Source: an uncultured Lachnospiraceae bacterium (GTDB taxonomy: Bacteria; Bacillota; Clostridia; Lachnospirales; Lachnospiraceae). Taken from it: 36,449 nucleotides of DNA. Numbering within the stretch: position 1 is the first letter of the stretch; every line of letters begins with the position of its first letter. The notes beneath the pieces were generated by a model that was not told the origin of the DNA, searched no databases, and was given only the letters and a program-made list of their open reading frames with translations. Positions 1 through 27,935 of the stretch are shown here, in pieces. The stretch covers positions 1 to 36,449 of the forward strand of contig CANSTU010000032.1 of NCBI GenBank assembly GCA_947650005.1, read 5' to 3'. The position numbers were made by a program, and so were the translations under genes.

Positions 1-109
1 CTCCCTGATTGAAATGCGCGCCTTGCGCGCAGACGGGAGCATGATTGAAAGAAAGCCCTTTCAATCTCCCTGATTGAAATACGCGCTTTGCGCGCAGATG
101 GGAGTAACT
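1..109 (+). repeat. Paired-hairpin 5'UTR repeat, locus A (upstream of mecA)
   Basis: Two GC-rich hairpin modules flank one AT-richer hairpin. The first module (1-39) is CTCCC, a TGATTGAAA spacer, the perfect stem TGCGCGC/GCGCGCA, then GACGGGAG. The middle hairpin pairs ATTGAAAG (44-51) with CTTTCAAT (58-65). The second module (66-104) repeats the first with small changes and ends in GGGAG (100-104), which is the Shine-Dalgarno sequence of mecA, 5 nt before its ATG. CTCCC at 66-70 can pair with this GGGAG. The element may extend left of the window. Related elements lie at 2538-2642, 19212-19490, 23489-23570 and 27875-27935. Confidence 0.85.
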
Positions 110-862
110 ATGAAAATTGAGAAAGTAAACGATCATCAGATTCGCTGTACTCTCACCAAAGCCGACTTGGCCGATCGGGAACTGAAGATCAGCGAGCTTG
201 CCTATGGCACGGAAAAAGCAAAAAACCTGTTTCGGGATATGATGCAGCAGGCCGCACAAAAATTTGGATTTGAAGCAGAAGATATCCCTCTTATGATAGA
301 AGCCATCCCTTTAAACTCCGATTGTATTGTCCTTATCATCACTAAGGTAGAGGATCCAGAGGAGCTGGATACACGTTTTTCCAAATTTGCCCCCAGTATC
401 CATGACGACGATTCTCTGGAAGATATGATTCAGGAACTGAGTGAAGGGGCGGATGATGTGCTGGATCTCTTTAAACGGATCCGTGAAAGCCGAACCACCC
501 TTGCAGGCGGACAGAAGGATAACACAGATGCAGCCGCTTCAGAAGGGACAGATGCTGATAAGCCGTTATCCCTTACACTGCTCTATTCCTTTTCCACGCT
601 GAATCATGTCATACGGCTGGCCCATGTGCTGGATGGTATCTACCATGGAAGCAACTTCCTCTACAAAGACAATACCTCAGGAAGGTATATCCTTTTGGTT
701 ACCAACGGCAGCCATACGCCTGAGGAATTCAACCGGCTTTGCAATTGCCTGTCTGAATATGGCCGCCAGGAAAAAAGCGTACCCGGCCAGGAAGCCTTTC
801 TGGAGGAACACTGTGAATTAATACTCGCTGGGAATGCCTTGCAGTCTTTGAACAAGGTCTAA
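110..862 (+). CDS. mecA: Adaptor protein MecA
   Basis: MecA is the cytosolic adaptor that brings substrates to the ClpC/ClpP protease in Firmicutes and was first known as a negative regulator of competence. The 250-residue product has the family N-terminus (MKIEKVNDHQIRCTLT), an acidic, low-complexity middle (about residues 85-155, rich in D/E/S), and a C-terminal ClpC-binding domain with aromatic-rich beta strands. This two-domain layout and length fit the family. The start at 110 is chosen because GGGAG sits 5 nt upstream and homologues begin with MKIEK; an upstream in-frame ATG at 74 lies inside the repeat hairpin and would add 12 repeat-encoded residues. A bidirectional terminator follows at 934-964. 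The upstream context is cut by the window edge. Confidence 0.93.
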   Translation: MKIEKVNDHQIRCTLTKADLADRELKISELAYGTEKAKNLFRDMMQQAAQKFGFEAEDIPLMIEAIPLNSDCIVLIITKVEDPEELDTRFSKFAPSIHDDDSLEDMIQELSEGADDVLDLFKRIRESRTTLAGGQKDNTDAAASEGTDADKPLSLTLLYSFSTLNHVIRLAHVLDGIYHGSNFLYKDNTSGRYILLVTNGSHTPEEFNRLCNCLSEYGRQEKSVPGQEAFLEEHCELILAGNALQSLNKV

Positions 863-933
863 TCCTTTGGATTCTATTTCGCCTTTTATGTAAACAAATG
901 CTTCCAAGTTCCATGTATCGGTTCATGGCAAAA

Positions 934-964
934 AAACAGGCGGCCAATTCCGTGCCGCCTGTTT
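934..964. terminator. Bidirectional hairpin terminator between mecA and the DUF1858 gene
   Basis: AAACAGGCGGC (934-944) pairs with GCCGCCTGTTT (954-964) around a 9-nt loop. A-rich sequence on the left and T-rich on the right let it end transcription of mecA (+) and of the convergent DUF1858 gene (-). Confidence 0.75.
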
Positions 965-1011
965 CGTGTTCAGTAAAGGTGCATATCTCCTTCAACTGCG
1001 GCTTCCGCCTT

Positions 1012-1203
1012 TTATACCGCTGTCACCGCCTTCATCAGTTCATCGATATCGATCCCATGAACCATTGCCGCCTCTTCCAGGCTCTCTCCCTGAGCTGAAG
1101 GGCATCCCAGGCAATGCATTCCCGCATTCATCAATACAGGAGCCACATCCGGGTTCATCCTGAGGATTTCCCCGATCGTCATTTCTTTGGTAATGTCAGC
1201 CAT
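1012..1203 (-). CDS. DUF1858 / hybrid-cluster-protein-associated redox disulfide domain protein
   Basis: This 63-residue protein consists of one DUF1858-type helical domain. It has the family pattern [28 protein letters not shown], written here only as landmarks: an N-terminal TIGEIL helix, the NPDVAPVL turn, then HCLGCP with a CxxC pair at about residues 31-34, then ESLEEAA. In this family the CxxC pair is thought to form a redox-active disulfide, and the domain is often found near hybrid cluster (prismane) proteins or fused to redox enzymes; its biochemical role is not settled. A strong AAGGAGGT site lies 7 nt before the ATG. It is a stand-alone gene convergent with mecA. Close to the ferredoxin gene, but no shared operon is visible because the two are divergent. 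Confidence 0.88.
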
Positions 1204-1608
1204 TTTGCCAACCTCCTTTTCTTATGAAAACTTCAGCCGTATACACAACTGTCCAGTTCAGTATAATACTTTTCCCACAAATGTTCAAGCTATGCAGCTG
1301 CCCAATCCATTGCAACATCTTATTAATTTACATTTCTTCCCATGCCGGGACGCCGTGCAGAGAGGAATATGCCAGGAGGAGCCGTGGAAGCGCCTAATCA
1401 CAGCAATCAAATGAACGGTCCATTTCCCTTTAAAGGACGCGGCCTGCAGGATCACAGAATGGAGATTTTGGGCCTTCGAAAAATGGTATCTGTGTTTTCT
1501 AAAAAGTACAAAAAAATAACAGGATTACCGGAAAAAAATCTTGTACAAAACTCGTTTCTATATTAGAATAGTTATTGATAATTAACTATCGCAAAGGAGG
1601 ATTTTATT
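1204..1608. other. Intergenic region between DUF1858 and ferredoxin genes
   Basis: About 405 bp without a convincing gene. It must carry the divergent promoters. Only the ferredoxin promoter (1541-1569) is recognisable. Short open frames here have no ribosome binding site and no recognisable sequence. Confidence 0.6.
1541..1569 (+). promoter_or_regulatory. Sigma-A-type promoter of the ferredoxin gene
   Basis: TTGTAC (-35, 1541-1546), a 17-bp spacer, and TAGAAT (-10, 1564-1569). The start codon of the ferredoxin follows 40 bp downstream with GGAGG at 1596-1600. Confidence 0.6.
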
Positions 1609-1779
1609 ATGGCATATGTAATCAGTGATGCTTGTGTAAGCTGCGGAACCTGCGAAGGACAGTGCCCTGTCGGCGCTATCTCCGCTGGTGACGGACAGTA
1701 CGTGATCGATGCGAATACCTGTATTGAATGTGGTTCCTGTGCAGGAGCCTGCCCTACAGGCGCTATCTCCCAGGGTTAA
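1609..1779 (+). CDS. 2[4Fe-4S] ferredoxin
   Basis: A 56-residue clostridial-type bacterial ferredoxin, a soluble low-potential electron carrier. It shows two pseudo-symmetric halves, each with CxxCxxC and a CP pair: CVSCGTCEGQCP (about residues 9-20) and CIECGSCAGACP (about 38-49). All eight cluster-ligand cysteines are present. Length and acidic composition match the classical clostridial ferredoxins of about 55 residues. GGAGG lies 8 nt before the ATG. The gene is monocistronic, with its own promoter at 1541-1569 and a terminator at 1855-1893. The redox partner cannot be told from the neighbours. Confidence 0.95.
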   Translation: MAYVISDACVSCGTCEGQCPVGAISAGDGQYVIDANTCIECGSCAGACPTGAISQG

Positions 1780-1854
1780 TCAGTCCGCGGTGCGGCGTCT
1801 CTTTGGGGAAATATTCCAGAAAACATAGGAAACATGTGCTGCTAAGCGCACGCG

Positions 1855-1893
1855 GAAAGAAGCATTCACATAGGCGAATGCTTCTTTCTTTTT
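1855..1893. terminator. Bidirectional terminator, ferredoxin / MerR gene
   Basis: GAAAGAAGCATTC (1855-1867) pairs perfectly with GAATGCTTCTTTC (1876-1888), followed by a T run on the plus strand and preceded by A-rich sequence for the minus strand. The left arm overlaps the stop codon of the MerR gene. Confidence 0.8.
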
Positions 1894-2537
1894 CCAAACA
1901 CCGATCCAACCCTCTTTTTATCTGCCGATGCTGCCTGTGCTTGTGCTTCTCCTGTTTCCTTTTTTCTACGTTCCCAGATTCCAGTCTTTTTTCTGCTGTA
2001 TTCCCTCAGTTTCTCATCCAGTTTTCGAAAATGTTCTTCTTCCCGCTCCATCCGTTCCTGATCCCGCTTGCGATTTTCCTCGTCCTGCGCCCGGAACTGG
2101 TAATCCAGCTCCTTCAAAATTGTTTCCCTTATTTCCCGGGTCATTTCCTTGTTATTTTCCCGTACAGCCTGAGATATCAGATTATGAAGGAGCATCTGAA
2201 GGCGAGCCCCCTTATCCCCTTCGGAAGGCCCAGGGGCAAGCTGTCCCTCTTCTCCAGCGATCTCTCTGCTCTGCAGCGGCACCATTACCTGCATGCTGCT
2301 GTCCGTTAACACCGTACGGATTGCTTTAAGCTGCAGCCCCTGTTCTTTCATTTTTTTGATTTCGCGGAACTGTTCCACATCTTCGCTGGTGTAATACCGA
2401 TGTCCCAATTCGTTCCTGCGTATGGGAAGTTTCAATTCCTCCTCCCAATAACGTAGCACATGGCTCTCCACTCCCACAAGCCTGGCCGTTTCCGAAATAA
2501 GATATTTTTCTTCTGTCTGACTCTTTTCCATACTCAT
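1866..2537 (-). CDS. MerR-family transcriptional regulator with long coiled-coil tail
   Basis: A 223-residue DNA-binding protein. Residues about 12-80 form the MerR winged helix: YLISETARLVGVESHVLRYWE (helix-turn-helix), then the wing with GHRYYTSEDVEQF and the helix REIKKMKEQGLQLKAI. After a variable stretch, residues about 125-210 are highly charged (repeated E/R/K, such as EEENRKRDQERMEREEE) and likely form a coiled coil for dimerisation. No metal- or drug-binding domain is visible, so the signal sensed is unknown. The start at 2537 is supported by AGGAG 5 nt upstream; that site is the 3' end of hairpin repeat locus B. A second ATG two codons later is possible. It follows dnaB on the same strand but a terminator-like hairpin (2655-2684) separates them. 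Confidence 0.85.
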   Translation of the reverse strand: MSMEKSQTEEKYLISETARLVGVESHVLRYWEEELKLPIRRNELGHRYYTSEDVEQFREIKKMKEQGLQLKAIRTVLTDSSMQVMVPLQSREIAGEEGQLAPGPSEGDKGARLQMLLHNLISQAVRENNKEMTREIRETILKELDYQFRAQDEENRKRDQERMEREEEHFRKLDEKLREYSRKKTGIWERRKKETGEAQAQAASADKKRVGSVFGKRKKHSPM

Positions 2538-2642
2538 ATCCGCTCCTATCTGTCCGCTTTTGCGGGCGCTCGAATCAAGGGAGTTGAAAGCGCCTTTCTT
2601 TCAACTTTGCTCCTATCCGCCCGCTTTTGCGGGCGCTCAAAT
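2538..2642 (-). repeat. Paired-hairpin 5'UTR repeat, locus B (upstream of the MerR gene)
   Basis: Read on the minus strand: a GC-rich hairpin GCGCCCGC/GCGGGCG-type ending in AGGAGCA, then GTTGAAAG/CTTTCAAC (2583-2590 with 2598-2605), then CTCCCTTGATTCGAG, a second GCCCGC-AAAA-GCGG hairpin and AGGAG (2543-2547) serving as the Shine-Dalgarno site 5 nt before ATG. Same architecture as the loci at 1-109 and 23489-23570, with different GC-stem sequence. Confidence 0.85.
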
Positions 2643-2654
2643 TCCTGAAAATAA

Positions 2655-2684
2655 AAAGAGGCCCCACGCAAATGAGTCCTCTTT
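2655..2684 (-). terminator. Terminator after dnaB
   Basis: On the minus strand, AAAGAGG and CCTCTTT (plus-strand arms 2655-2661 and 2678-2684) form a stem followed by a run of Ts (A-rich 2651-2657 on the plus strand). It ends the gdpP-rplI-dnaB transcript 43 bp past the dnaB stop. Confidence 0.65.
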
Positions 2685-2726
2685 CGTAATATCATGTTTT
2701 GGGACGATGATCATCCAACCACATCC

Positions 2727-4067
2727 CTATCTTTCCAAATTGGCAAATTTCGTGAATTCAGGCAACCATACCAGGTCAATGGTGCCGATCGGCCCGTTTC
2801 TCTGTTTCGCTATGTTGATCTCGGCAATTCCCTTTTTCTCCGTGTCCGGGTTGTAATAATCATCCCTGTAAATGAACATGACCACATCCGCGTCCTGTTC
2901 GATGGCGCCAGATTCGCGCAAATCCGAAAGCATGGGCCGATGATCCGGGCGCTGCTCCACGGCACGGCTAAGCTGCGAAAGGGCCAATACCGGAACCTGC
3001 AGTTCCCGGGCAATCGCTTTAAGGGATCTGGAAATATCGGAAATTTCCTGCTGCCTGGAGTCAGTTCCCCTCCCGCTTCCCGACATCAGCTGGAGATAGT
3101 CTATTATCACCATCTTTAAATCCATTTCCAGCTTAAATTTACGGCATTTAGAACGTAGTTCCGGAACGCTGATACCTGGGGTATCATCAATGATCAGATT
3201 TGACTGACCGATCATCCCTGCGCTTTCGATCAGCTTTTCCCATTCGTTATCCGATAGGTTCCCTGTACGAAGATGCTGGGAATCCACCTTGGATTCCATG
3301 GCGAACAACCGATTTACCAGTTGCTCCTTGCTCATTTCCAGACTGAATATGGCCACGCATTCCCGGGAACGGAATGCCACATACTCCGCAATATTCAGCA
3401 CGAACGCCGTCTTTCCCATGGAAGGCCTGGCAGCGATCAACACCAGATCAGAGGGCTGCATACCCGCAGTTCTGTAGTCCAGATCAATAAAGCCCGTAGC
3501 GATTCCGGTTACATTCCCATCGCTATGGGAAGCTTTCTCAATCTTATCCATGGCATTCATTACCACTTCCCGGATCGGCACGAAATCTCCGGTATTCCTG
3601 CGTTGGATCAGATCGAACACCCGCTTCTCCGTATCCTCCAGAAGCGCTTCCATGCTGTCCTTTCCCGCATAGCAGTTGTTTGTGATCTCTTCCATCAGAC
3701 GGATCAGACGCCGCAGCACGGCCTTTTCCGCCACAATGTTGGCATAGTATTTGATGTTGGCAGAGGTTGGAACGGCCACCAAAAGCTCCCTGATGAATTC
3801 CAGACTGGCGACTTCCGGCGGGACATCCTTTTCCTTCAGACGGTTCTGCAGAGTGACCAGATCCACCGGCTGTCCCTGGTCATTGAGCTCCACCATAGAA
3901 TCAAAAACCACTCCATAGGATTTATTATAAAAATCTTCTCCGGTGACCGACTCCGAAGCGATCACAATGGCTTCTCTATCCATGATCATAGAACCGATCA
4001 CCGACTGCTCCGCTTCCATACTATGGGGCAGTACTCTCTTTAAAACAGCCTCGTCCATCGATGTCAT
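2727..4067 (-). CDS. dnaB: Replicative DNA helicase DnaB
   Basis: DnaB is the hexameric ATP-driven helicase that unwinds the replication fork. The 446-residue product has the N-terminal helical domain (about 10-110: LPHSMEAEQSVIGSM, typical DnaB start), a linker, and the RecA-like C-terminal domain. Walker A is ARPSMGKT (about residue 212-219), with SLEMSKEQL, the Walker B-like MVIIDYLQLMS, QLSRAVEQR and the C-terminal DLVWLPEFTKF. Length is standard. The start is placed at 4067 because an AGGGG site lies 8 nt upstream; a GTG at 4106 in the same frame lacks a ribosome binding site, and an ATG three codons further in (4058) is also possible. It is the last gene of the gdpP-rplI-dnaB cluster, an order common in Firmicutes. 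No intein is seen. Confidence 0.95.
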   Translation of the reverse strand: MTSMDEAVLKRVLPHSMEAEQSVIGSMIMDREAIVIASESVTGEDFYNKSYGVVFDSMVELNDQGQPVDLVTLQNRLKEKDVPPEVASLEFIRELLVAVPTSANIKYYANIVAEKAVLRRLIRLMEEITNNCYAGKDSMEALLEDTEKRVFDLIQRRNTGDFVPIREVVMNAMDKIEKASHSDGNVTGIATGFIDLDYRTAGMQPSDLVLIAARPSMGKTAFVLNIAEYVAFRSRECVAIFSLEMSKEQLVNRLFAMESKVDSQHLRTGNLSDNEWEKLIESAGMIGQSNLIIDDTPGISVPELRSKCRKFKLEMDLKMVIIDYLQLMSGSGRGTDSRQQEISDISRSLKAIARELQVPVLALSQLSRAVEQRPDHRPMLSDLRESGAIEQDADVVMFIYRDDYYNPDTEKKGIAEINIAKQRNGPIGTIDLVWLPEFTKFANLER

Positions 4068-4179
4068 CCGTATACCCCTGTGTATCGCAGGCTGCGCCTG
4101 AGACACCGTACCAATAGAGAGTTCGGAAGTCTCCCTCCAAACTTATCTTCTTTCCGTTTCAATCCCAATCTTGTGTACT

Positions 4180-4623
4180 CTATTCTTCAACCTTGACCTT
4201 CAGTTTTCCCGTCACCTGGGGATGAAGACGCACCGGGACATCATAAGTTCCATAAGCTTTTATTCCGTCGGTTAACTGAATTTTTTTCTTATCGATCTCC
4301 AAACCGCACTGTTCTTTAAAAGCAGCGGCGATTTCTTTAGAAGAAACGGAACCAAAGACCCGGCCGCCTTCTCCAGCTTTCATCTTGATGACCACGAACT
4401 TATTTTCCAGTTCCTTTGCAAAGGCCTGAGCTGCTTCCAGAATCTCCTTTGCTTTTTTCTCTTCGTTCGCATGTTGCAGCTTCAGGTCGTTCAAGTTCTT
4501 CCCTGTCGCTTCCACCCCCACCTTTTTAGGGAGAATGTAATTTCTGGCGTATCCGTCGTTTACATTGACCACTTCCCCTTTTTTCCCAAGGCTCTTTACA
4601 TCTTCCAGTAAAATCACTTTCAT
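4180..4623 (-). CDS. rplI: 50S ribosomal protein L9
   Basis: L9 binds 23S rRNA near the base of the L1 stalk. The 147-residue protein shows the signature of the N-terminal domain (MKVILLEDVKSLGKKGEVVNVNDGYARNYI, here quoted as landmarks VKSLGKKGEVV and GYARNYILP), the long connecting helix (about 45-78, rich in K/E/A), and a C-terminal domain with RVFGSVSSKEIAAAF. Length matches the family. The ATG overlaps the gdpP stop by 4 nt (ATGA), so translation is probably coupled to the upstream gene; GAGGAAGG lies inside the end of gdpP. Confidence 0.97.
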   Translation of the reverse strand: MKVILLEDVKSLGKKGEVVNVNDGYARNYILPKKVGVEATGKNLNDLKLQHANEEKKAKEILEAAQAFAKELENKFVVIKMKAGEGGRVFGSVSSKEIAAAFKEQCGLEIDKKKIQLTDGIKAYGTYDVPVRLHPQVTGKLKVKVEE

Positions 4624-6674
4624 TGTCTCAATTCACCTTCCTCTATCATTTTATCCAGTGTTTCCTTGATTCGCCTGATCACTTCCGACGGCTGGGCATT
4701 GTCCACCTGACAACCTGCCACGCTCATGTGGCCTCCGCCGCCCATCCGCTCCATAATCACCTGCACATTGACTTCATCTATAGAGCGGGCGCTGATATAG
4801 ACACGCCCCTGATACTCCGTCAGCACAAAGCTGGCGCGCACCCCCTTCATGTTGAGCAGCTCATTGGCCGCCTGGGCGCCTACGATCGTCGGACTCTGCA
4901 GCCCTTCGCTTCTGCATACGGATACTGCGTAATACTCCCGGTAAATTTCCGCCTGGCTCACCGCATCCGCCTTGGCCTTATATTCTGCCGCATTCTCTCG
5001 GAAGAGCTTGCGTACCCGCGTTACATCAGCGCCGTTGCGCCGCAGGAAAGCTGCTGCCTCAAAGGTACGGACGCCTGTTTTCGTCATAAAATTATCGGTA
5101 TCGATCACAATGCCGGAATACATGCAGTCCGCTTCCTCACCCCTGATGCGTACCCCGTCATTGATATACTGCAAAATTTCGGATACCATCTCACAGGCGG
5201 ACGAAGCATAGGCCTCCACATAGGACAGCGTGGCATTCTCAATGGTCTCCGTCCCCTGCCTGTGATGGTCCAACACCACAATCGATTTACAAATCTTTAA
5301 GAGCTCTGGGCACTCGGTAATGCTGGGTTTATTCACATCCACCACCACCAACACCGTATTGCTCCCTGCCATCTCTATAGCCTGCTGGCTGCGCAGGAAC
5401 ATATCCGGCTCATATTCCCTGTTGTTCTGGAACATCTCGATTAACGGCTGGACGGAAGTGGTAATATCGTTGATTACGATCTGCGCCCGGCGCTCCAGTG
5501 CCTTTGCAATCCGGTAGATCCCAATGGCCGCGCCAAAGCTGTCCACGTCGGCCATACGATGGCCCATGATCAGGATCCGATCCTTACTGGTGATGATCTC
5601 GCTGAGGGCGTGGGCCTTCACACGCGCTTTTACCCTGGTGTTCTTCTCCACCTGATGGCTCTTTCCGCCATAGTAACTGATCTGCTCCGGCGTTTTCACC
5701 ACAGCCTGATCCCCGCCGCGGCCCAAAGCCAGGTCGATTGCCGTTCTCGAGAATTCATAGTTCTGGGAATAGCTCAGACCATCCAGCCCGATTCCTACGC
5801 TTATCGTCACAGCCATTTCGTTCCCGATATTCACCGTTTTCACATCATCCAGGATCTCAAAACGCTTCTCGCCCATCTGCGCTACGGCCTTTTTCCGCAG
5901 GATCGCCAGATACTTGTCCTTCTCCATCTTCTTACAGATTCCATCAAAGCAGGCCACATATTTATTGATCTTTCTTTCGATCAGGGCGGTTAGCAGAGAA
6001 CGCCTCACCTCTTCCACGCTTTCCAACGCTTCATCATAATTGTCAAGATAAATCAGTCCCACCGCCAAGGATTGGTCATCGTTTTCCTTCAAAGCAATTT
6101 TCAACGCCGTCTCGTCAAACAGGCACATGGCGAACAGACAGCCCTGATATTCTTCTTCCCCTATGATATCACTGTCATCAGCCATCTCGCGCAGGGAAAT
6201 TCTGGTGAATTTCGCAACAAATTCGCTATTCTCATGGGAAATTTCAAATTCACACACGCCCTCCTCCTCCGAAGGGAGCCTGTCCTTTGTAACCGATGAA
6301 AAAAAAGACGTAATGGATTTCCTCACTGCCTTCTCGTTATGTATGGCCTGAGAAAATGCCTCATTGTACCAGATGATCTTTCCATCCTCATCCAGCAAGG
6401 TATAGGGAACATCCAGTTCCTTCAAAAGCTCCTTCTGTATCTGCCCATACTGTGTGGCAAAGCTCACCAGTTCGTTGATAATAATGGGCCTATTATAAAA
6501 CATTAAATAGAGAATCATTCCAAAGTAAAAAACCAAAAAGCAAGTCAGCAAAAACCCCGCCTGCAGATCCAGAAAATAAACCCCCAGATCCACCAACAGA
6601 AGCATTAATCCCAGATACAGGGAAACCTGCATGTAGATTCTCAACCGCCCTTTCAGCTTCACTCTTTTTTTCAT
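4620..6674 (-). CDS. gdpP: Cyclic-di-AMP phosphodiesterase GdpP (DHH family)
   Basis: GdpP hydrolyses cyclic di-AMP to pApA and so helps set osmolyte and cell-wall homeostasis. The 684-residue membrane protein has two N-terminal transmembrane helices (about 13-35 and 38-60), a PAS-like sensor domain (about 85-145), a degenerate GGDEF domain (about 200-325, no GGDEF active-site motif), and a DHH/DHHA1 module: MGHRMADVDSFGAA (about 370-383), VVLDHHRQG with the DHH triad (about 469-471), and a C-terminal GGGGHMSVAG. Start: ATG at 6674 begins MKKRVKL; its AGGAAAGG site is about 12 nt away, which is long. In-frame ATGs at 6728 and 6716 lie just downstream of the predicted promoter and remain possible. 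First gene of the operon with rplI and dnaB. Confidence 0.95.
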   Translation of the reverse strand: MKKRVKLKGRLRIYMQVSLYLGLMLLLVDLGVYFLDLQAGFLLTCFLVFYFGMILYLMFYNRPIIINELVSFATQYGQIQKELLKELDVPYTLLDEDGKIIWYNEAFSQAIHNEKAVRKSITSFFSSVTKDRLPSEEEGVCEFEISHENSEFVAKFTRISLREMADDSDIIGEEEYQGCLFAMCLFDETALKIALKENDDQSLAVGLIYLDNYDEALESVEEVRRSLLTALIERKINKYVACFDGICKKMEKDKYLAILRKKAVAQMGEKRFEILDDVKTVNIGNEMAVTISVGIGLDGLSYSQNYEFSRTAIDLALGRGGDQAVVKTPEQISYYGGKSHQVEKNTRVKARVKAHALSEIITSKDRILIMGHRMADVDSFGAAIGIYRIAKALERRAQIVINDITTSVQPLIEMFQNNREYEPDMFLRSQQAIEMAGSNTVLVVVDVNKPSITECPELLKICKSIVVLDHHRQGTETIENATLSYVEAYASSACEMVSEILQYINDGVRIRGEEADCMYSGIVIDTDNFMTKTGVRTFEAAAFLRRNGADVTRVRKLFRENAAEYKAKADAVSQAEIYREYYAVSVCRSEGLQSPTIVGAQAANELLNMKGVRASFVLTEYQGRVYISARSIDEVNVQVIMERMGGGGHMSVAGCQVDNAQPSEVIRRIKETLDKMIEEGELRQ

Positions 6675-6750
6675 GGCTATACCATGCCTTTCCTGTTGTA
6701 GGCGTCGCCCCAGCATGCCGCGCAGCATCGGGAATTATACGGCTTTTGCC

Positions 6751-6779
6751 ATTATACCATTTTTTTGACAATAAGCCAA
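6751..6779 (-). promoter_or_regulatory. Promoter of the gdpP-rplI-dnaB operon
   Basis: On the minus strand, TTGGCT (-35, 6774-6779), a 17-bp spacer and a perfect TATAAT (-10, 6751-6756). Transcription would start near 6744, upstream of all candidate gdpP starts. Confidence 0.7.
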
Positions 6780-6977
6780 TAGTTTCCTTCTGCGAGTATG
6801 CGACACAATCTGCCAAAAGCCAACAAATAAGCGGTCTGTAACTGCTATGGAAGGGGGCGGGGAAGGGCACCCCGGCCAGAGGGAACACCCAAAAACGCCT
6901 CGTCCGTCCCGAAATGCCCCGCTTTGCACACGCTCCCCCATCCTACGCACCTATGGCATTCTCTCAATTCAATACAA

Positions 6978-7027: not shown

Positions 7028-7056
7028 ATTCAATAATGACTGGTTTTCAGACTATC

Positions 7057-7320
7057 TTATTCAGCCACATAAGGCATCAAGGAAAGATGACGAGCGCGCT
7101 TGATCGCCACGGTAAGGGCTCTCTGGTGCTTTGCGCAGTTGCCGGTGATCCGCCTGGGCAGAATCTTACCCCTCTCGGATACATACCTCTTCAGCTTATT
7201 CACGTCCTTATAATCGATCACATTATCCTTGCCGCAGAACACACAAACTTTTTTCCTTCTGCGCACGCCGCCCCTTCTCTTCATCGGAGCATCCGTCTTT
7301 TCTGCTTTATTATAAGCCAT
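7057..7320 (-). CDS. rpsR: 30S ribosomal protein S18
   Basis: S18 binds 16S rRNA in the platform as a heterodimer with S6. The 87-residue protein has the basic N-terminus, the core signature ([53 protein letters not shown]). It is the zinc-ribbon-like form with cysteines in CVFCGK and GNCAKH. AGGAGG lies 7 nt before the start. Last gene of the rpsF-ssb-rpsR operon, the standard bacterial order. Confidence 0.97.
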
Positions 7321-7457
7321 AATTTTGCCTCCTATCTGAAAATGAATCCCGAATACGAACTACCTATACCCATCTGTGCGCAAGGTACGTACTCAAATCA
7401 GGAAGATCGATACAAAATACCAATCTTGTCCCACCATGGGACAGCTTCCCTTCCCCG

Positions 7458-18635: not shown

Positions 18636-19211
18636 TTACAAGTTTCCCTTTAAGCCAATCTCCTCCGCCCGTTCTCTCATTCCTTCAATGGTTTCACGGA
18701 TTACATCGTCAAGCTCCATACCGAGCATCTCACAGCCGCTGCGTATTGTCTCCCGATCCACGCCCGCCGCAAAGGACTTGTCCTTGAATTTCTTCTTTAC
18801 CGACTTCACTTCCAGATCCAGCACGCTCCTGGAAGGACGCATAAGGCATACCGCGTTGATCAGTCCCGTCAGCTCGTCCACCGTAAACAGAACCTTTTCC
18901 ATCCTGCTCTCCGGCTTCGCGTCTGTACAGATTCCATAACCGTGGCAGCTCATAGCGCGGATATAGGTCTCATCCACACCTCTTTCCCGCATGATCTCCT
19001 CCGCCTTTCGGCAATGCTCTTCCGGGAATTTCTCATAGTCCAGATCATGCAGCAGGCCGGCAACACCCCATACCTCTTCATCTTCCCCCTCCAGCCTGCC
19101 AAAATGGGCCATTACCGCTTCCACCGCCAGGGCGTGGTTCTGAAGGGCCTGGCCTTTCGTATACTCAGTCAGCAGTTCCCAGGCATCCTGCCTTGACATC
19201 TTCTTTTCCAT
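18636..19211 (-). CDS. HD-domain hydrolase
   Basis: A 191-residue soluble protein of the HD superfamily (metal-dependent phosphohydrolases). It shows LQNHALAVEAVMAHF (first His), LLHDLDYEKFPEEH (the HD pair, about residues 56-57), and ISCHGYGI-like MSCHGYGICTD with a further His, then a helical C-terminus. Many close relatives are annotated simply as HD or HDIG proteins and no substrate is known. The start at 19211 has GGGAGG 5 nt upstream, supplied by hairpin repeat locus C; the in-frame ATG at 19271 lies inside the repeat. No operon partner is evident. Confidence 0.85.
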   Translation of the reverse strand: MEKKMSRQDAWELLTEYTKGQALQNHALAVEAVMAHFGRLEGEDEEVWGVAGLLHDLDYEKFPEEHCRKAEEIMRERGVDETYIRAMSCHGYGICTDAKPESRMEKVLFTVDELTGLINAVCLMRPSRSVLDLEVKSVKKKFKDKSFAAGVDRETIRSGCEMLGMELDDVIRETIEGMRERAEEIGLKGNL

Positions 19212-19490
19212 TTTTGCCTCCCATCTGCGCGATTTGACGCGCGTGCATATCAGAAGGATTGAAAAATTCAATTTTCATCCTTGCTCCCATCTGCGTGCAT
19301 CGCACGCATTTAAATCAAGGCGGATGAATACGCCCTTCCTTCATCCTTGCTCCCGTCTGCGTGCATCGCACGCATTTAAATCAAAGAGGATGAATGCGTC
19401 CTTCCTTCATCCTTGCTCCCGTCTGCGTGCATCGCACGCATTTAAATCAAGGCGGATGAATGCGTCCTTCCTTCATCCTTGCTCCTATGC
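19212..19490 (-). repeat. Paired-hairpin 5'UTR repeat array, locus C (upstream of the HD gene)
   Basis: Three tandem 66-bp units (19281-19346, 19347-19412, 19413-19478) are followed, toward the gene, by one diverged unit. Each unit on the minus strand has GGATGAA/TTCATCC, a CTTTGATTT or CCTTGATTT spacer, the stem TGCGTGC/GCACGCA, and GAYGGGAGCA. The gene-proximal unit has GGATTGAAAA/TTTTTCAATCC, a GCGCG stem and GATGGGAGG, which acts as the Shine-Dalgarno site. The array also produces a spurious plus-strand frame with 22-residue periodicity. Confidence 0.9.
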
Positions 19491-19652
19491 CCGCAGCCTC
19501 CGTTTCCAGCCGGATCAGGACAACGGGACGCAGCGGTCGTACAGAATACTTCGAAGAAAATAATAGCATAAAAATTGCTACCTGACATTAAGAAATTCGA
19601 TAAAATAGCTTTTATTTTAGCTTTCGGCTGGCTCAAAAAAGGGCGGCACGCT

Positions 19653-20946: not shown

Positions 20947-21204
20947 CAGGGCAAACGCATGAATGTGCCAGCCAACCCCTTTGATCCCTGCGCAATCCCA
21001 TTTCGGCATCAATTGCACGTGGGAGCCACAGAGGGGATCATCAAAAACGTCAGCACTTTGCGAGCGCGTTCTTTGCGATCTTAGTACCGCTGCGTCTTGG
21101 TTGTGCGGGAGCCGTCCCCGCTGGATCCCCACGCACGGCTGAGGCCGAAATGGAATGATGCAGCAAGCAAAGGGATTGGTCGGTGCATTCATGCGTTTGT
21201 CCTG
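20947..21204. repeat. About 250-bp imperfect inverted-repeat element
   Basis: The left end (from CAAACGCATGAATG at 20952) and right end (to CATTCATGCGTTTG at 21199) are inverted copies. Over the outer 56 bp the arms keep equal length and are clearly alike, for example CCCTTTG, CATTTCGGC in the left arm, GCCGAAATG, CAAAGGG in the right. Weaker similarity continues inward (CGTGGG with CCCACG). The centre is not symmetric and holds no credible gene. The element occupies most of the space between the GntR remnant and the DMT transporter. Confidence 0.7.
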
Positions 21205-21265
21205 CGAGAAGAGGAGCAGAAATTAGGTTAGGGAAAACCATATGTCACGATTAGGAGGAAATATC

Positions 21266-22150: not shown

Positions 22151-22209
22151 GGATTTCGTTTATCCGGCAAAGCAGTATTTCATCAAAAGAATCTGACGCC
22201 TAGACGTAA

Positions 22210-22250
22210 AGCCGGCAGACCTGTGAAAGATCAAGGTTTGCCGGCTCTCT
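22210..22250 (+). terminator. Rho-independent terminator after the DMT transporter
   Basis: AGCCGGCAGACCT (22210-22222) pairs with AGGTTTGCCGGCT (22234-22246), one G-U pair, followed by CTCTTT. Confidence 0.8.
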
Positions 22251-22394
22251 TTATATCCCCCAATTTTCCACTCCCTTCTTCGCCCAGATCCGTGGCATGC
22301 CAATTCTGCCTTCGGCCTGGGAAGCGTACGGCAGGAGAGCGGCCCTGGCCATAAGAAGGCTATATTGGTCTTGGCAGGTGTATGAACCGTTATG
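22251..22394. other. Intergenic stretch before the glycan-operon promoter
   Basis: No gene, repeat or hairpin that I can support between the terminator of the DMT gene and the promoter block at 22395. Confidence 0.5.
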
Positions 22395-22441
22395 AAAAGT
22401 ATATTTTATCATGTAAAACTCTGCATTTTACCCAGTAGAAT
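22395..22441 (+). promoter_or_regulatory. Shared 47-bp promoter/operator block, glycosidase operon copy
   Basis: Begins AAAAGTATATTTT, continues TCATGTAAA and TGCATTTTA, and ends in the -10 box TAGAAT (22436-22441). The -35 region is poor, as expected for an activated promoter. The minus-strand block 33015-33061 before the importer operon matches it at 40 of 47 positions with no gaps. Confidence 0.75.
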
Positions 22442-22534
22442 ATTTTAGGAAAAATTGCTAAAATATTAGGAAAAAAGGGATTCCTTTTATGGATCATGGA
22501 GATTTTCAGGATCAAGGAGGAAGGGGGATATGCT

Positions 22535-23488
22535 ATGCAGGAGAAAAAATGGATCTATCTTATTCACTTAAGCACCAATATGTGGGGAGACCCTGGTTCC
22601 AACTTCATCTACAAACCTTACTATGATACGTTCCACACGGACGAGGACATCTGGAGGAAAACCATCGATTTCCTTCCAGCACAGGGTTTCAATTCCCTGC
22701 TGATCGATGTCGGGGACGCGATCCAATATGAGTCGCATCCGGAGATTGCCATCGCGGGAGCCTGGTCCAAGGAAAAGATGAAAAAGGAACTCGACTACAT
22801 CCGCTCCATCGGTCTGACTCCGCTGCCAAAGCTCAACTTTTCCACTTGCCACGATGCATGGATGGGCGAATATAGCAGGATGGTAAGTACGAAGCAGTAC
22901 TATCAGTTCTGCGATGATGTGATCGACGAAGTCTGCGAACTGTTCGATTATCCACAACTGCTCCATCTTGGGATGGACGAAGAAGGTTTGGCATGCCAAA
23001 AAGAATACAGCATCTGCCACATCCGCTTTGGCGATCTGTGGTGGCATGATGTCTACAAGCTCTTCAACGCGTGCGACAGAAATGGTGTCCGTCCATGGGT
23101 CTGGGCCGATCCATGCTGGAAGCATCCCGATGTGTATCTGAAGAAGATGCCCAAAAGCGTTATGCAGTCAAACTGGTGGTATGATCCGATGCCCCGCGCA
23201 GAAGACGGTACGTTTGAGGACCACCGTCCGGGCTGCTATCAACTTCTTGAGAAGGCCGGATACGATCAGATTCCCACATGCAGCTCCACCTGGAGCTACC
23301 AGTTTAACACAGACGATACGCTCAGAGAGGTGTGTTCCTGCATTTCTGATGAACGCCTTAAGGGAGTCATCGCAGCGCCCTGGCAGCTTACCACACAGGA
23401 GGATTATTACACGCTTCTTGACGAAGCGAACCGATTTGGTTTAGCAAAGAGAAAATATTTTCCAGACGCACCAGAAAGCCTTTATTAG
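22535..23488 (+). CDS. GH20-superfamily-like TIM-barrel protein
   Basis: A 317-residue protein without a signal peptide, hence probably cytosolic. It reads like a stripped-down glycosidase barrel: WIYLIHLSTNMW at the start, GFNSLLIDVGDAI, a central LLHLGMDEEG (Asp/Glu about 148-150) that recalls the H-x-G-x-D-E motif of GH20 hexosaminidases, then VRPWVWADPCW, MQSNWWYD and GVIAAPW. I do not recognise a named family with confidence; GH20-like is inference from the DE motif and tryptophan-rich strands. Start at 22535 follows a GGAGGAAGGGGG stretch; an ATG at 22496 is also in frame. First gene of an operon with the GH36-like protein, sensor kinase, regulator and GDPD. Promoter block at 22395-22441. 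Confidence 0.65.
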   Translation: MQEKKWIYLIHLSTNMWGDPGSNFIYKPYYDTFHTDEDIWRKTIDFLPAQGFNSLLIDVGDAIQYESHPEIAIAGAWSKEKMKKELDYIRSIGLTPLPKLNFSTCHDAWMGEYSRMVSTKQYYQFCDDVIDEVCELFDYPQLLHLGMDEEGLACQKEYSICHIRFGDLWWHDVYKLFNACDRNGVRPWVWADPCWKHPDVYLKKMPKSVMQSNWWYDPMPRAEDGTFEDHRPGCYQLLEKAGYDQIPTCSSTWSYQFNTDDTLREVCSCISDERLKGVIAAPWQLTTQEDYYTLLDEANRFGLAKRKYFPDAPESLY

Positions 23489-23570
23489 GAAGGGGAGCAA
23501 GGTTGAAAGAAAGGCGCTTTCAACCTCCCTGATTTACAGGCGCGCTTAGGCGCGCGAAGGGGAGCAAAAT
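23489..23570 (+). repeat. Paired-hairpin 5'UTR repeat, locus D (upstream of the GH36-like gene)
   Basis: GGTTGAAAG (23501-23509) pairs with CTTTCAACC (23517-23525), then CTCCC (23525-23529), TGATTTACAG, the stem GCGCGC/GCGCGC (23540-23545 with 23550-23555), and GGGGAGCA. GGGAG at 23560-23564 is the ribosome site, 6 nt before the ATG, and can pair with CTCCC. The element fills exactly the gap between two operon genes. Confidence 0.87.
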
Positions 23571-25301
23571 ATGTACACACAAGAAAGCAACGGCCGCTAT
23601 TTCGTAAAAACAAGCAGCTATGCGCTCACGATCACAGCGAATTGCATTGATTTTATCGTAGCCGGGGAGGTTCTCGCCGGTCTTCGCCCCGTATCCGCAG
23701 TGAATACCTGTGGAAAAGAAAACAAAGTAACCGACGATGCGGAAATGGGACAGGTCAAGCTGTCTGCATCCATAGAACATGAAATCGCTACCTACATATG
23801 GGAATCGTCCTCTTCTCTGTGGGAGAAGAAGGAATATATCGTACGTTGCTTTGAAACGCATTTTGAATACTCCGTCCGTGTTACCGGAAGGGGCGCCGTC
23901 GATACGGTAAATTATTTTAGCGGAAATCTCTCCGAGGGAAAGCAGGGCAGCATGTACGAATTCGATATGGGCTTTACGCCTATCGTAACGGTTACAGGCC
24001 AAAAACAGTGCTATTTCTCGGCGATGGAAAGCCAAGAAGTTTTTTCCTATCTGATGATTCCTCCCATGTTTGTATACAGCTTCTCAACTCCCGGGGTTGC
24101 CCCCAAAATAGCATTTGGCCTTGCGGCCGACAGGGGGGAACACAATTTTACCCAATTTAACTATAAAACGCACTCCGATGCAAATCGTAGGCGTTTCTGG
24201 TTTTGGACGGATCAGAGCGGGCATACTGTTGTCAACGGTACATGGGAAACTCCCAGAGTCCTCTGCTATGTGGCCGAAAGCGATATGGCGGCGCTCAAAG
24301 TATACAGCGACTACTACTTTACCGCCGGTCTCGCAAAGCATAAATCGCCCGGCGAAAAGCGGCCGCGCTTTTGGTACGGTCCGATGACCTGCGGCTGGCT
24401 CGAGCAATATGCCTATGGTAACAGACACGGAGGCAAATATACAAGTTATGCCGAATGCACGGCTCTCGCATGCGAAGAAGTCTATCGCAATCTGGCCAAG
24501 GAGCTTCAGAAGAAAAAACTATATCCTAAGATCATGATCATTGACGATAAATGGCAGAACAGCTATGGCGATCAATATCCGAATAAGGATCAATGGCCGG
24601 ATCTGCGCGCCTTTATTGATGAGAATAGGGACAAAAACGGGATTTATACAATGCTGTGGTTTAAACTTTGGGATGCCGAAGGACTTGAAGAAGATATGTG
24701 TATGTGGGATCCGAAGGAAAACCGTCGTGTTGCGGACCCGACCAACCCCAAATATCGCGAACGCCTAAAGGCAATGCTTTATCATCTTCTTTCCAGCGAC
24801 GAGGGATGCTGTAATGCCTACGGGCTGAAGCTTGACTATGCGTTCTGGCAGCCTGTCGGCCGGGGTGCAAGATCCTATTCCGGAAAATACGGCGTTGAGC
24901 TATTCCTTGAATTGATTTCTTACATCTATCGGTGCGTGAAAGAAATCAAACCCGAGGCGGTCGTAAATTGCAGTCCCTGCCATCCCTTATTTGTCGAATT
25001 CTGTGATCAGGCCCGCCTCCATGACTACTATATCGATCTTCGCCGCTGCTATGAAGAATTCAGTTTCCGCAAGGAGGTCTATGAAATCGCCATGCCGGAC
25101 GTTCTTTTCGATACCGACGGAGCTGCATTTTCTTCCTATAGAGATACCATGCGCTATATGCGCCTTGCCCCCACGCTCGGAATCCCTGATCTCTATTGTA
25201 TTTCCCCCATGCCCAGCCTTGAGCTGAGCGCCGACGATTGGGATTGCGTAAGCAAAGTATGGGCCGAATATGACAGGCGGATCGATCGAATGTTTGAATG
25301 A
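23571..25301 (+). CDS. GH36/clan-D-like glycosidase
   Basis: A 576-residue protein without a signal peptide. Residues 1 to about 255 look like a beta-sandwich; about 265-560 look like a TIM barrel. Barrel features are FWYGPMTCGW, the strand IMIIDDKWQNSYGDQ, YTMLWFKLW, GLKLDYAFW (Asp about 422, where GH36-type alpha-galactosidases place the nucleophile) and DVLFDTDGA (Asp about 514 or 516, a possible acid/base). GH36 enzymes usually exceed 700 residues, so this is a short or separate branch; GH31/GH-D relatives are an alternative. Likely acts on an imported oligosaccharide. The start follows the repeat-borne GGGGAG. Its stop overlaps the kinase start by 4 nt (ATGA). Confidence 0.72.
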   Translation: MYTQESNGRYFVKTSSYALTITANCIDFIVAGEVLAGLRPVSAVNTCGKENKVTDDAEMGQVKLSASIEHEIATYIWESSSSLWEKKEYIVRCFETHFEYSVRVTGRGAVDTVNYFSGNLSEGKQGSMYEFDMGFTPIVTVTGQKQCYFSAMESQEVFSYLMIPPMFVYSFSTPGVAPKIAFGLAADRGEHNFTQFNYKTHSDANRRRFWFWTDQSGHTVVNGTWETPRVLCYVAESDMAALKVYSDYYFTAGLAKHKSPGEKRPRFWYGPMTCGWLEQYAYGNRHGGKYTSYAECTALACEEVYRNLAKELQKKKLYPKIMIIDDKWQNSYGDQYPNKDQWPDLRAFIDENRDKNGIYTMLWFKLWDAEGLEEDMCMWDPKENRRVADPTNPKYRERLKAMLYHLLSSDEGCCNAYGLKLDYAFWQPVGRGARSYSGKYGVELFLELISYIYRCVKEIKPEAVVNCSPCHPLFVEFCDQARLHDYYIDLRRCYEEFSFRKEVYEIAMPDVLFDTDGAAFSSYRDTMRYMRLAPTLGIPDLYCISPMPSLELSADDWDCVSKVWAEYDRRIDRMFE

Positions 25302-27151
25302 CCTCACAGTCGTTCAAAGGCAGCAAAATATCCGGATGGATAAAAGAACTTGAAAGGAACAGCCGTTTGAACAAAAAAAGAATAATCCGATTTCCGCTGC
25401 CAGTGCAGATGTCTCTACTTTATATTTTTATCTGCCTGCTTCCGACACTTCTGCTCTGCTTCTATTTTTCAGATGCTGTACGTATACTGAGTATTTCGGA
25501 GACGAAAGAAATCTATCGTTACTCCGTCGAACAGGTTGGAACGAACCTGAACGAAAAAATAACAGAAATAGCCCAAGCCTCCTTTGCCGTCGGTACGGAT
25601 AAAGCCGTAGTCTCCTATCTTTCGGATCATACGGAAGACGATTACCGGCTATACAGCACTTATGTAAGCACGGTTCACGGGCTGTTTGAGCAGCTGCGAT
25701 ACCGTTTTCAAAATCTGCGCGTCCACATTTACACAACAAACCCCGATATCAAGTTTTCCGGGACATTTATCCGGGACGATGAGCAGTTTCTGGAACGTGA
25801 AGAGGCTCTGGAAGATGCGGACGGGCTGTTCGCATGGAACGGTATTTGCCGGGAATTCGGAAGGGATTACCTGATCGCCAGCACGCCGATCAAGGATTTC
25901 TCCATGGGGGGCGCTACCGTGGGCATTCTGGAGATTGGCATCGACCGGGAGGACCTTGTCGCATATATTGATGAAGCGGCTCTTTCGGATGTAATCGTCC
26001 TGCTGCGGGATCAAAACGATCGTGTGCTGCTCTCAAACCTACAGGACACGCAGAAAGAGCAGGAGCTTCTACAGGTTCTGCAAACCCCACGGGAAAGCGA
26101 CATCGTATCATGGGACGAAAAAAGCTATCTGGTGTTCCAGTCTGACATTGAAAACAACTATCTTGGAATCGATCAATGGAAAAATGAACACCTTGTTCCG
26201 CTGCAGATTGTGGAACAGGGCGCGCGTGAAATTAAGCTCACGGGATTTGTGGTGACAGGGATCCTTGCCCTGACCGCATTGACTATCCTGATGTTCTTTT
26301 CGCGCCGGCTGACGCGCCGGCTGAAGTTGCTGACAGACGCGATGAACCATATTGAAGCCGGACACAATGATGTTTCGATTCCAGTCACCGGCCACGATGA
26401 AATCTATGATCTCGGAATGCATTTTGAAAAAATGGTCTTGCGGATCCGTTATCTGATGAACGAGGTTTATGAAAATGAGATCAAGAAACAGAAACTGATC
26501 AACGAACAAAAAACGATCCGGCTGATCATGCTGCAAAATCAGATCAATCCGCATTATTTATTTAATACGATGGAAACGATCCGAATGAATCTCTTGATCA
26601 AAGGCGATACGGAAACCGCAGGCGTGATCCGCGTATTTGCAGACAGCTTCCGTGAAATGCTGGACGATTCCACACTGACCTGCCGTCTAGGCGAAGAGTT
26701 GGGATTTGTAAAAAAATATTTTCTGATCCAGAAATACCGATTTGAGGAAAAGATCGATCTGACGATCTCGGCGGATGAATCCATGATGAATGCTGTGATC
26801 CCAAAATTTCTGCTACAGCCAATGGTGGAAAACTCAATTCTTCACGGGTTGGAACAAAAGGCGGGAAACGGAATGGTATTCGTTCAGATCGAGCGGTTCG
26901 GAGAGGTTCTGCATATCCGTATTAAGGACAATGGGATCGGTATGAACGACGCAGAGCTTTCTGCCCTGAGGGAAAGTATTGCCCACCCGGAGGAAGGCTG
27001 GAGGGAGCATTATGCGTTACGTAATATTGCGCGACGCCTTTCACTTCTATACAATGGCGACGCCCTGCTTGAGTTGGAGAGCGTTGCCGGCCGGGGGACA
27101 CATTTTCATGTGTGTATTCCATATAGCGAAGAGCAGATAACCGACCGATGA
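25298..27151 (+). CDS. YesM-type sensor histidine kinase
   Basis: A 617-residue membrane kinase. Transmembrane helix 1 is at about 38-58 and helix 2 at about 315-335, enclosing an extracellular sensor domain of about 255 residues (Cache-like). A HAMP domain follows (about 336-390), then the LytS/YesM-type phosphoacceptor domain QNQINPHYLFNTMETIRM with His about 419, and the ATPase domain with VENSILHG (about 510-517), DNGIGM (about 544-549) and GRGTHF. All catalytic parts are present. Such kinases usually sense extracellular sugars and phosphorylate the neighbouring YesN-like regulator. The start codon overlaps the stop of the GH36-like gene (ATGA), implying coupled translation. Confidence 0.92.
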   Translation: MTSQSFKGSKISGWIKELERNSRLNKKRIIRFPLPVQMSLLYIFICLLPTLLLCFYFSDAVRILSISETKEIYRYSVEQVGTNLNEKITEIAQASFAVGTDKAVVSYLSDHTEDDYRLYSTYVSTVHGLFEQLRYRFQNLRVHIYTTNPDIKFSGTFIRDDEQFLEREEALEDADGLFAWNGICREFGRDYLIASTPIKDFSMGGATVGILEIGIDREDLVAYIDEAALSDVIVLLRDQNDRVLLSNLQDTQKEQELLQVLQTPRESDIVSWDEKSYLVFQSDIENNYLGIDQWKNEHLVPLQIVEQGAREIKLTGFVVTGILALTALTILMFFSRRLTRRLKLLTDAMNHIEAGHNDVSIPVTGHDEIYDLGMHFEKMVLRIRYLMNEVYENEIKKQKLINEQKTIRLIMLQNQINPHYLFNTMETIRMNLLIKGDTETAGVIRVFADSFREMLDDSTLTCRLGEELGFVKKYFLIQKYRFEEKIDLTISADESMMNAVIPKFLLQPMVENSILHGLEQKAGNGMVFVQIERFGEVLHIRIKDNGIGMNDAELSALRESIAHPEEGWREHYALRNIARRLSLLYNGDALLELESVAGRGTHFHVCIPYSEEQITDR

Positions 27152-27163
27152 GGAGGGAACGAG

Positions 27164-27892
27164 ATGTACCGTGTAGTGATCGCAGACGATGAGCGGGCAA
27201 TCCGGACCGGCCTGCAGATCATTGTTGATTGGAACAAGCTGGGGTTTGAAATTGCCGGATGTGCAAGCGACGGAGAAGAGGCGCTGCAAATGCTGTTGAA
27301 ACAGAATATCGATGTCCTGGTGACCGATATCCGTATGCCCAGGCTCAGCGGCTTGCAGCTGGTAAAGAAAGTACAGGAGCTGGGATTATCGATACATGTT
27401 ATACTTCTTACAAGTTACCGTGATTTTGAATACGCACGCCAAGCCATTTCGCTTGGCGTGCGCGAATATCTGCTCAAGCCTGTGGACGAGGTCGCTTTAC
27501 AGGAGCTTCTTCGGAAGATGTACGACGAACTTAGCAAACGTGACGAGGAGGATAGCACTCATCGCGAGCAGCAGCTTGTTACCCAGTTACGTAGGTTGAT
27601 CGAAGAAGAATACATGCAAAACATCAGCCTGAAAAGCTTGGCTGAACGCCTGCATTACAATCCGGCTTATCTGGGCCGGCTGTTTCGGGCAGAAACGGGA
27701 AATAGTTTTCGGGATGAGCTGAACCTTTATCGAGCCCGTCAGGCAGCGCAGCTGCTCAGAAACAGCAGTATCAGCATCAATGATGTGGCCGAGCGCGTCG
27801 GATATCACGACATTAATTATTTCCACCGCATTTTTTTAAAGATCTATGGGGTTTCACCAGGAAAATATAAAAGCGGTCAGCGGAAAAGCTGA
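27164..27892 (+). CDS. YesN-type response regulator with AraC DNA-binding domain
   Basis: A 242-residue cytosolic regulator: receiver domain at 1-120 with acidic pocket DDE (8-10), phosphorylated Asp about 55 (VTDIRMPR), Thr/Ser in LLTSYRDF and Lys in YLLKPVDE; then an AraC helix-turn-helix pair at about 145-240 (ISLKSLAERLHYNPAYLGRLFRAETG, NDVAERVGYHDINYFHRIFLKIYGVSPGKYK). It is short because the linker found in longer YesN proteins (often over 400 residues) is missing. GAGGAGG lies 6-7 nt upstream and it follows the kinase by 12 bp. The probable target is the 47-bp block in front of this operon and of the importer operon. Its stop codon lies in a GGTCAGC/GCTGACC hairpin that begins repeat locus E. 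Confidence 0.93.
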   Translation: MYRVVIADDERAIRTGLQIIVDWNKLGFEIAGCASDGEEALQMLLKQNIDVLVTDIRMPRLSGLQLVKKVQELGLSIHVILLTSYRDFEYARQAISLGVREYLLKPVDEVALQELLRKMYDELSKRDEEDSTHREQQLVTQLRRLIEEEYMQNISLKSLAERLHYNPAYLGRLFRAETGNSFRDELNLYRARQAAQLLRNSSISINDVAERVGYHDINYFHRIFLKIYGVSPGKYKSGQRKS

Positions 27893-27935
27893 CCAATGGT
27901 TTGAGTGCGTGCTTTTCACGCGGATGGGAGCAGTC
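27875..27935 (+). repeat. Paired-hairpin 5'UTR repeat, locus E (upstream of GDPD)
   Basis: GGTCAGC (27875-27881) pairs with GCTGACC (27888-27894) and overlaps the stop of the regulator gene. After an ATGGTTTGAG spacer, GCGTG (27907-27911) pairs with CACGC (27917-27921), then GGATGGGAGCA; GGGAG (27926-27930) is the ribosome site 5 nt before ATG. The layout matches the other four loci although the first stem has a quite different sequence. Confidence 0.65.

Follow-up and report, generated by a model that had tools for sequence, protein, structure and literature searches.

A short two-hairpin repeat is dispersed through the genome under study (G000, hereafter the home genome) and stands directly before genes, in their orientation, far more often than chance would place it. 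We consider it probable that the repeat represents a family of short, non-autonomous interspersed elements that enter between a Shine–Dalgarno (SD) sequence and its start codon and bring a replacement SD with them. The starting point was an original prediction made on the window, one whole contig (C32) of 36,449 nt whose start falls inside a repeat array. Its observation was confirmed and turned out to be larger than described, and its interpretation was partly supported.

Read in gene direction, the unit of about 66–74 nt consists of GGGAGCA, hairpin 1, YCCTGATTT, a GC-rich hairpin 2, AGAYGGGAGCA and the start codon; it thus runs from one SD to a second, AGATGGGAG, with the start codon about 5 nt further on. 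Many copies carry GGGAG on both borders, and no terminal inverted repeats were seen in the unit. The window was scanned, with filters off, using R2, a broader covariance model built from 89 copies from several genomes, yielding the following features (E-values are those of R2):

1–34, plus strand: hairpin 2 end of an upstream copy, truncated by the contig start (partial match 2–31)
35–106, plus strand: copy a (5e-18); GGGAG at 100–104 is the predicted SD of mecA, ATG at 110
2541–2614, minus strand: copy b (2e-18), predicted SD of a MerR-family gene at 1866–2537
2618–2642, minus strand: hairpin 2 fragment of the copy before (20.1 bits; in direct repeat D4, 91%)
7365–7433, minus strand: decayed copy (3e-4) between presumably ssb-like and rpsR-like genes, absent from the original prediction
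19216–19486, minus strand: tandem array of four copies with a 66-nt period (19348–19420, 8e-19; 19216–19288, 3e-15; 19421–19486, 2e-13; 19289–19346, 2e-10), the last placing GGGAG before an HD-domain gene at 18636–19211
23493–23566, plus strand: copy d (3e-20), predicted SD before the open reading frame (ORF) 23571–25301
27879–27932, plus strand: diverged locus e (4e-4), hairpin 2 and SD before a GDPD gene, ATG at 27936

The top five of these E-values are circular, because the copies concerned are among the 89 rows of R2; those of the copies at 27879 and 7365 are not, and the real test lies in genome-wide counts and controls. All five loci for which a common layout had been claimed read as described, except that at the last one (27875) we assign only hairpin 2 and the SD to the family, because the first hairpin overlaps the end of the upstream reading frame (27164–27892) at its stop codon and its arms no longer fully pair in the sister species. 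Loci a, b and c comprise more than one unit or unit part, fused at a common GGGAGCA or AGGAGCA. Copy d begins 5 nt past the end of the upstream ORF 22496–23488; the sister species, G106, has a single GGGAG without hairpins at this site. The decayed copy no longer has an adjacent start codon, and the ATG at 7320 is preceded by its own AGGAGG; the genes on either side of this copy were named from their protein starts.

Searching the home genome with a 30-nt hairpin-1 pattern, allowing up to two mismatches, gave 76 matches, compared to none for a reversed-pattern control. A first covariance model, built from 25 home-genome copies, found at least 151 matches with E-values up to 0.1; 150 of them form 103 arrays. 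Rescanning home-genome DNA around the known arrays with R2 raised this to at least 216 copies, grouped into 135 arrays (86 with one copy, 28 with two, 13 with three, five with four and three with five), some of the 66 added copies being weak (E up to 1e-3). The figure of 216 is a lower bound, because a further 20-kb stretch (C19) outside the count contained two more copies. Unlinked copies reach 96% identity.

Both hairpins covary, also in other genomes. The alignments were fitted to the models and are biased towards them, the first model deriving from the home genome only; within them, 95.5% of cells pair among the 25 home-genome copies and 93.3% among the 89 copies from several genomes, where 15 of 16 base pairs show double changes. 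These 89 copies hold 197 double-change cells versus 64.9 in shuffles, and reach a covariation score of 0.391 versus 0.160 for shuffled alignments and at most 0.120 with slid partners. The 35 distant copies from seven other genomes (G024, G045, G087, G101, G103, G105 and G111) alone score 0.451 versus 0.155, with 99 double-change cells versus 31.3. The claim that stem changes keep pairing therefore stands for the family, but not for the first hairpin at 27875 in the sister species. At C43:28266, C66:7485 and C36:4052, both arms differ between the orthologous copies of the home genome and G106 but pairing is preserved, which replacement by another copy would also explain.

Placement was assessed on 124 arrays, with genes called by reading frame only; 32 weak opposite-strand matches lying over real copies had been excluded before counting, as had 11 of the 135 arrays, which are so close to a contig end (within 60 nt) that they have less than 60 nt of downstream DNA. 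A start codon 3–11 nt after an SD-like core, opening an ORF of at least 60 amino acids (the looser test), follows 91 of the 124 arrays. The spacing is 5 nt in 55, 6 nt in 20, 4 nt in seven and wider in nine of these (4–6 nt in 82), and the start codons comprise 84 ATG, five TTG and two GTG. A strict test (GGAG, 4–6 nt, ATG, ORF of at least 60 amino acids) was passed by 72 of 124 arrays, compared to 116 of 3,919 GGAG and 38 of 1,010 GGGAG sites outside copies in the same DNA. The predicted position directly before a gene, in its orientation, is thus well above chance, and the copies are not randomly placed or oriented: 94 of 124 arrays have an ORF start within 40 nt at their 3' side, but only 11 of 122 have one on the opposite side. 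Among the 33 arrays failing the looser test, inspection by eye showed that 12 continue into diverged copies and six have an ATG at the usual spacing with a short frame, the remainder being decayed, displaced or unclear.

The same arrangement recurs elsewhere. Among the 35 distant copies, which are the best of their genomes and in several cases part of short arrays, 34 precede an ORF of at least 60 amino acids at SD spacing. In G106, in stretches chosen around copies, the looser test accepts 64 of 91 arrays; it also accepts 442 of 2,534 other GGGAG sites there, because start codons inside genes qualify. Four G106 copies lie away from start codons (L181:11973, L197:19006, L216:484 and C63:8572), all within larger composite repeats absent from the home genome, and these argue against a strict start-codon rule. 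At L197:19006, L181:11973, L216:484 and L266:1073 of G106, the two-hairpin unit forms the left part of such composites, again away from start codons. G106 also contains a further dispersed leader, ending in CCCAAAACGGGAAAGGCATGGGTATAAATATG or similar before start codons (L182:2024, L194:5571, L210:7538, L216:934 and L266:9958). Back in the home genome, a same-strand ORF stops within 120 nt upstream of 27 of 74 gene-preceding arrays (within 30 nt for 18), a further 17 having too little upstream DNA. Many arrays therefore lie inside operons, making the supply of a promoter a less likely role.

The genes behind the repeat are unrelated and include household genes. We ran Pfam on 20 downstream proteins, five from the window and 15 from a random list of 30, and obtained MecA (PF05389, 3.9e-76, for the mecA product), MerR, HD, GDPD twice, an SH3 domain, a glucosamine isomerase-type protein, DUF6106, solute-binding and permease transporter parts, an ABC ATPase, TatD, an AP endonuclease-type protein, DUF4317, histidine biosynthesis, a phosphatase and MinC. 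Three of the 20 matched no Pfam family at 1e-5. The absence of a common function was thereby upheld, but not the label of glycosidase for the gene at 23571, which is one of these three. The unit before minC in the home genome (L147, C56:1541; identified by Pfam) apparently recurs before minC in G103, a distant member of the genus (L099; judged by the protein start only); its presence in two genus members could reflect an old insertion or repeated choice, and could also reflect a conserved function.

The distribution of the repeat across genomes is patchy. Six of 13 genomes of the genus carry the unit, with at least 150 matches in G000 and at least 147 in G106, and 13 in G101, eight in G103, three in G105 and ten in G111. 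Within the family, at least four of 100 genomes were positive with the first model and at least ten of 250 with R2 at 1e-4; in a phylum sample of 398, the home genome was the only one among the matches listed. Weak carriers may be missed in these larger scans, because the best 12–49 candidates per genome were scored under strict filters. A strict pattern run against GTDB contigs returned 12 stretches, all in records of the sister-species MAG S29_Bin8, with home-genome records possibly left out. Viral contigs, phages and plasmids, each queried with one pattern or one 74-nt copy, gave no match. Among the distant copies, 24 of 31 have an SD-like tetramer within 15 nt before hairpin 1, compared to 8.6 in control windows, a result that is supportive only, because the search model itself favors GGGAG there.

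Orthologous leaders with and without the unit were compared between the home genome and G106. Both flanks were found in G106 for 20 arrays, of which four were dropped as too gapped; the remaining 16 and five from the 20-kb C19 stretch gave 21 sites. The unit is absent from G106 at nine of them (C6:26663, C17:14669, C31:17811, C31:22439, C32:23493, C63:13342, C19:8491, C19:13320 and C19:16083), partial or decayed at three (C32:19216, C19:6469 and C19:21498) and present at nine, two of these being strongly diverged (C67:7394 and C94:5418). At five of the nine unit-less sites, G106 has its own, different SD before the start codon. The clearest case is C19:13320 (minus strand), where G106 reads GGAGGTA, 3 nt and ATG, and the home genome reads GGAGGTA, the unit, GAAGGGAGCAAAAT and ATG before the same 275-amino-acid protein; GGAGGTA is thus kept to the left of hairpin 1 and a new GGGAG stands before the ATG. 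At C31:17811, C31:22439 and C63:13342, the G106 SD is unlike that of the element, and the home genome keeps a purine-rich stretch to the left of hairpin 1. At C19:16083, the home genome has only hairpin 2 and the SD, placed after the native AAGGAGGGAG. The reverse case also occurs: at C63:17416–17551, G106 has a chain of hairpin modules with one TTGAAAAT-type hairpin 1, and the home genome has GGAGGTTGACG-ATG. At C32:23493 and C19:8491, the G106 SD is of the GGGAG type, so slippage between flanking repeats could just as well have removed the unit. No consistent target duplication appeared in the examined junctions; a close match between left and right borders is confined to some copies, such as d. 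To find an outgroup ortholog that would give polarity, the DNA of C31 was searched against five genus members, which yielded only short matches of 64–93% identity; we take these for paralogues rather than the ortholog.

We infer that insertion accounts for the species differences, that an enzyme moves the element and that translation starts from the new SD. The element would settle between the SD and the start codon, oriented as the gene; the old SD would be left on its left side and its right end, AGATGGGAG, would become the new SD at normal spacing, so that the gene would remain translatable. Because GGGAGCA borders both sides, the number of adjoining units could also rise or fall at one site, giving tandem arrays. 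The layout and one-sided orientation suggest that insertion is strand-specific, by analogy with IS200/IS605 or REP elements. A more far-reaching proposal, which we put forward tentatively and regard as possible rather than probable, is a mobile class that targets the translation initiation region: it would recognize the SD on one strand, insert before the start codon and supply a structured replacement SD through a new enzyme, with genes, essential ones included, surviving the event. If the mobile reading is true, many start sites in some Lachnospiraceae are made of mobile DNA, and the repeat spreads through household genes by restoring the very signal that it separates. The repeat would also be a testable lead to a new mobility enzyme, and, as a natural collection in which one SD module comes with varied hairpins before about 90 genes, it is useful for studies of translation initiation.

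The original prediction had allowed for either a mobile element or a common translational control module. Patchiness, unrelated genes, unit-less sister sites and unlinked copies up to 96% alike favor the mobile reading, and nothing pointed positively to shared regulation. The main rival, which we judge unlikely, remains a shared cis-regulatory RNA module in which a factor or condition acts on both hairpins and governs SDs across a large regulon. It would account for the strong covariation and for the conservation of the unpaired YCCTGATTT and AGATGGGAG in other genomes, and the sequences suggest that YCCC could pair with GGGAG. Yet the genes are unrelated, household ones included, the sister species differ in presence at nine of 21 sites, and the unit occurs in at least ten of 250 family genomes. 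Moreover, the predicted unpaired probability of the right SD (mean of 0.46 over 105 copies) and of the left SD (0.42) is similar to that of 104 ordinary genes (0.40), which gives no support for an SD-masking switch, and we rejected SD masking. The mobile reading has its own counter-evidence: the sister SD is of the GGGAG type at two of nine unit-less sites, as slippage would leave it; the minC unit occurs in G000 and, by protein start, in G103; 33 of 124 home-genome arrays fail the looser test; the four G106 copies in composite repeats lie away from start codons; and neither a linked transposase, in the search with PF01797, nor a consistent target duplication was found.

Selection could instead act on a peptide or on coupling, if hairpin 1 encoded a mini-ORF (a start, nine codons and a TGA stop) with coupling to the gene that follows, as in a translated, MIRU-like element. 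Of 114 home-genome copies with a left GGAG, 101 have ATG, GTG or TTG 3–8 nt past it and 70 stop within 11 codons, before hairpin 2, the commonest peptide being LKEGRFQPP (n = 14); among 30 NTG-bearing distant copies, nine overlap the gene start at −4 or −1 and the rest are scattered. This reading is nevertheless quite improbable, and a conserved mini-ORF was rejected: the frame is not kept across subfamilies, whose loops have other lengths, the amino acid at codon 4 varies freely, seven of 30 distant copies start with CTG, and the stop lies anywhere between 62 nt ahead of the gene and 110 nt within it, so frame, start codon and stop are not kept in relatives and the constant feature is the hairpin. 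We give slightly less credence still to a single-strand element of the REP or IS200/IS605 type, with a left hairpin after a target GGGAG, a right hairpin before a cleavage GGGAG and a Y1 transposase since lost. Strand-fixed insertion would produce one orientation, the order of target, hairpin, spacer, hairpin and GGGAG would fit IS200/IS605-type architecture, and Y1 proteins (PF01797, the only enzyme family covered in the search for a parent transposon) are present in nine of 14 tested carriers, namely four genus carriers besides G000 and G106 (G101, G103, G105 and G111) and five of eight family carriers (G024, G138, G184, G190 and G195). However, PF01797 had no match in the two copy-rich species G000 and G106, nor in G087, G175 and G013, and it occurs in the genus non-carriers G102 and G110; given its absence in the main carriers, Y1 was rejected as the mover. 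An autonomous version, in which a gene would separate the two hairpins, was not found at two hairpin-1-matching loci outside the model list, one being an ordinary diverged copy before a gene and the other cut by a contig end. Chance or assembly artefact has a negligible probability: contigs do break at arrays (for 11 of 135 the end is no more than 60 nt away), but the reversed-pattern control (0 versus 76) and the copies in other genomes refute it, and the arrays may in turn explain contig breaks in these assemblies. A small mobile element with an SD-restoring right end is favored because Y1 is absent in the main carriers, the mini-ORF is unconserved and SD accessibility is ordinary.

REP, BIME and REPIN sequences, with their RAYT (Y1) transposases, are short dispersed paired hairpins with a GGAG-type motif beside them. 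The likeness lies in short dispersed hairpin units, their pairing and the adjoining GGAG-type motif; unlike REPs, the present units are fixed at start codons and their two richest carriers lack Y1.

In keeping with the original prediction, which knew of no named family of this form, Rfam at the curated threshold detected only tRNAs in the window and nothing near threshold for 19150–19550. We recognized no description of it in the literature full text, which is weak evidence of novelty, as few subscription papers were covered. Pneumococcal BOX elements, proposed as the nearest analogy, gave way to mycobacterial MIRUs, whose behavior as described in PMC12548453 is closer. There, MIRUs are short repetitive units, said to be mobile and to integrate at start codons while hardly affecting the gene, by way of a coupled ORF. 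Insertion at start codons and in the same orientation is shared (here 91 of 124 arrays), whereas the MIRU ORF is coupled at −4 nt and no frame is kept here. The repeat is not filed as a MIRU because the coupled ORF is not conserved and because covarying hairpins and a replacement SD, both present here, are absent from that description of MIRUs. BOX, RUP and SPRITE are, according to PMC3049150, small interspersed repeats built from modules in varying composition, some with expressed ORFs; the modular, variable form is shared, but BOX is over-represented there between convergent genes, whereas the present units stand at start codons in one orientation and supply an SD. Correia elements and other bacterial MITEs, as covered in PMC10969869, are likewise small and mapped upstream of genes, with effects on expression. 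Correia elements are, however, said to carry promoters, and no long terminal inverted repeats were seen in the present units; the text of that review contains neither 'Shine' nor 'ribosome binding'.

Several further features accompany the arrays. In the array at C24:10910 (L128) and in L167, L172 and L004, the last unit is longer and has an extra hairpin of the GGACTTTGTGACG...CCCAAAGTT type, which precedes a GCCGC-type hairpin, with AGAGGAAATATG in the complete ones, giving the array system a second end module. Another end module, in L164 (C92) and L132 (C31:22439), consists of a TTTGAAAC hairpin, CTCTTTATTGG, a ATCGCAGGCATAGCCTGCGAT hairpin and GGGGTATAA. Nine-G runs occur downstream of the copies at C3:59247 (L107) and C1:40499 (L102), where reading frames are interrupted, possibly by phase variation or assembly error. 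The window also contains, at 20947–21204, an inverted-repeat element of about 258 nt with 77-nt arms that are 75% complementary, part of which (about 120 nt) recurs many times in G106, forming a separate MITE-like family. A further MITE-like sequence at 33130–33209 has nearly palindromic 37-nt arms with a 6-nt gap, and its end, CATTCATTCGTTTG, resembles the CATTCATGCGTTTG end of the 20947 element.
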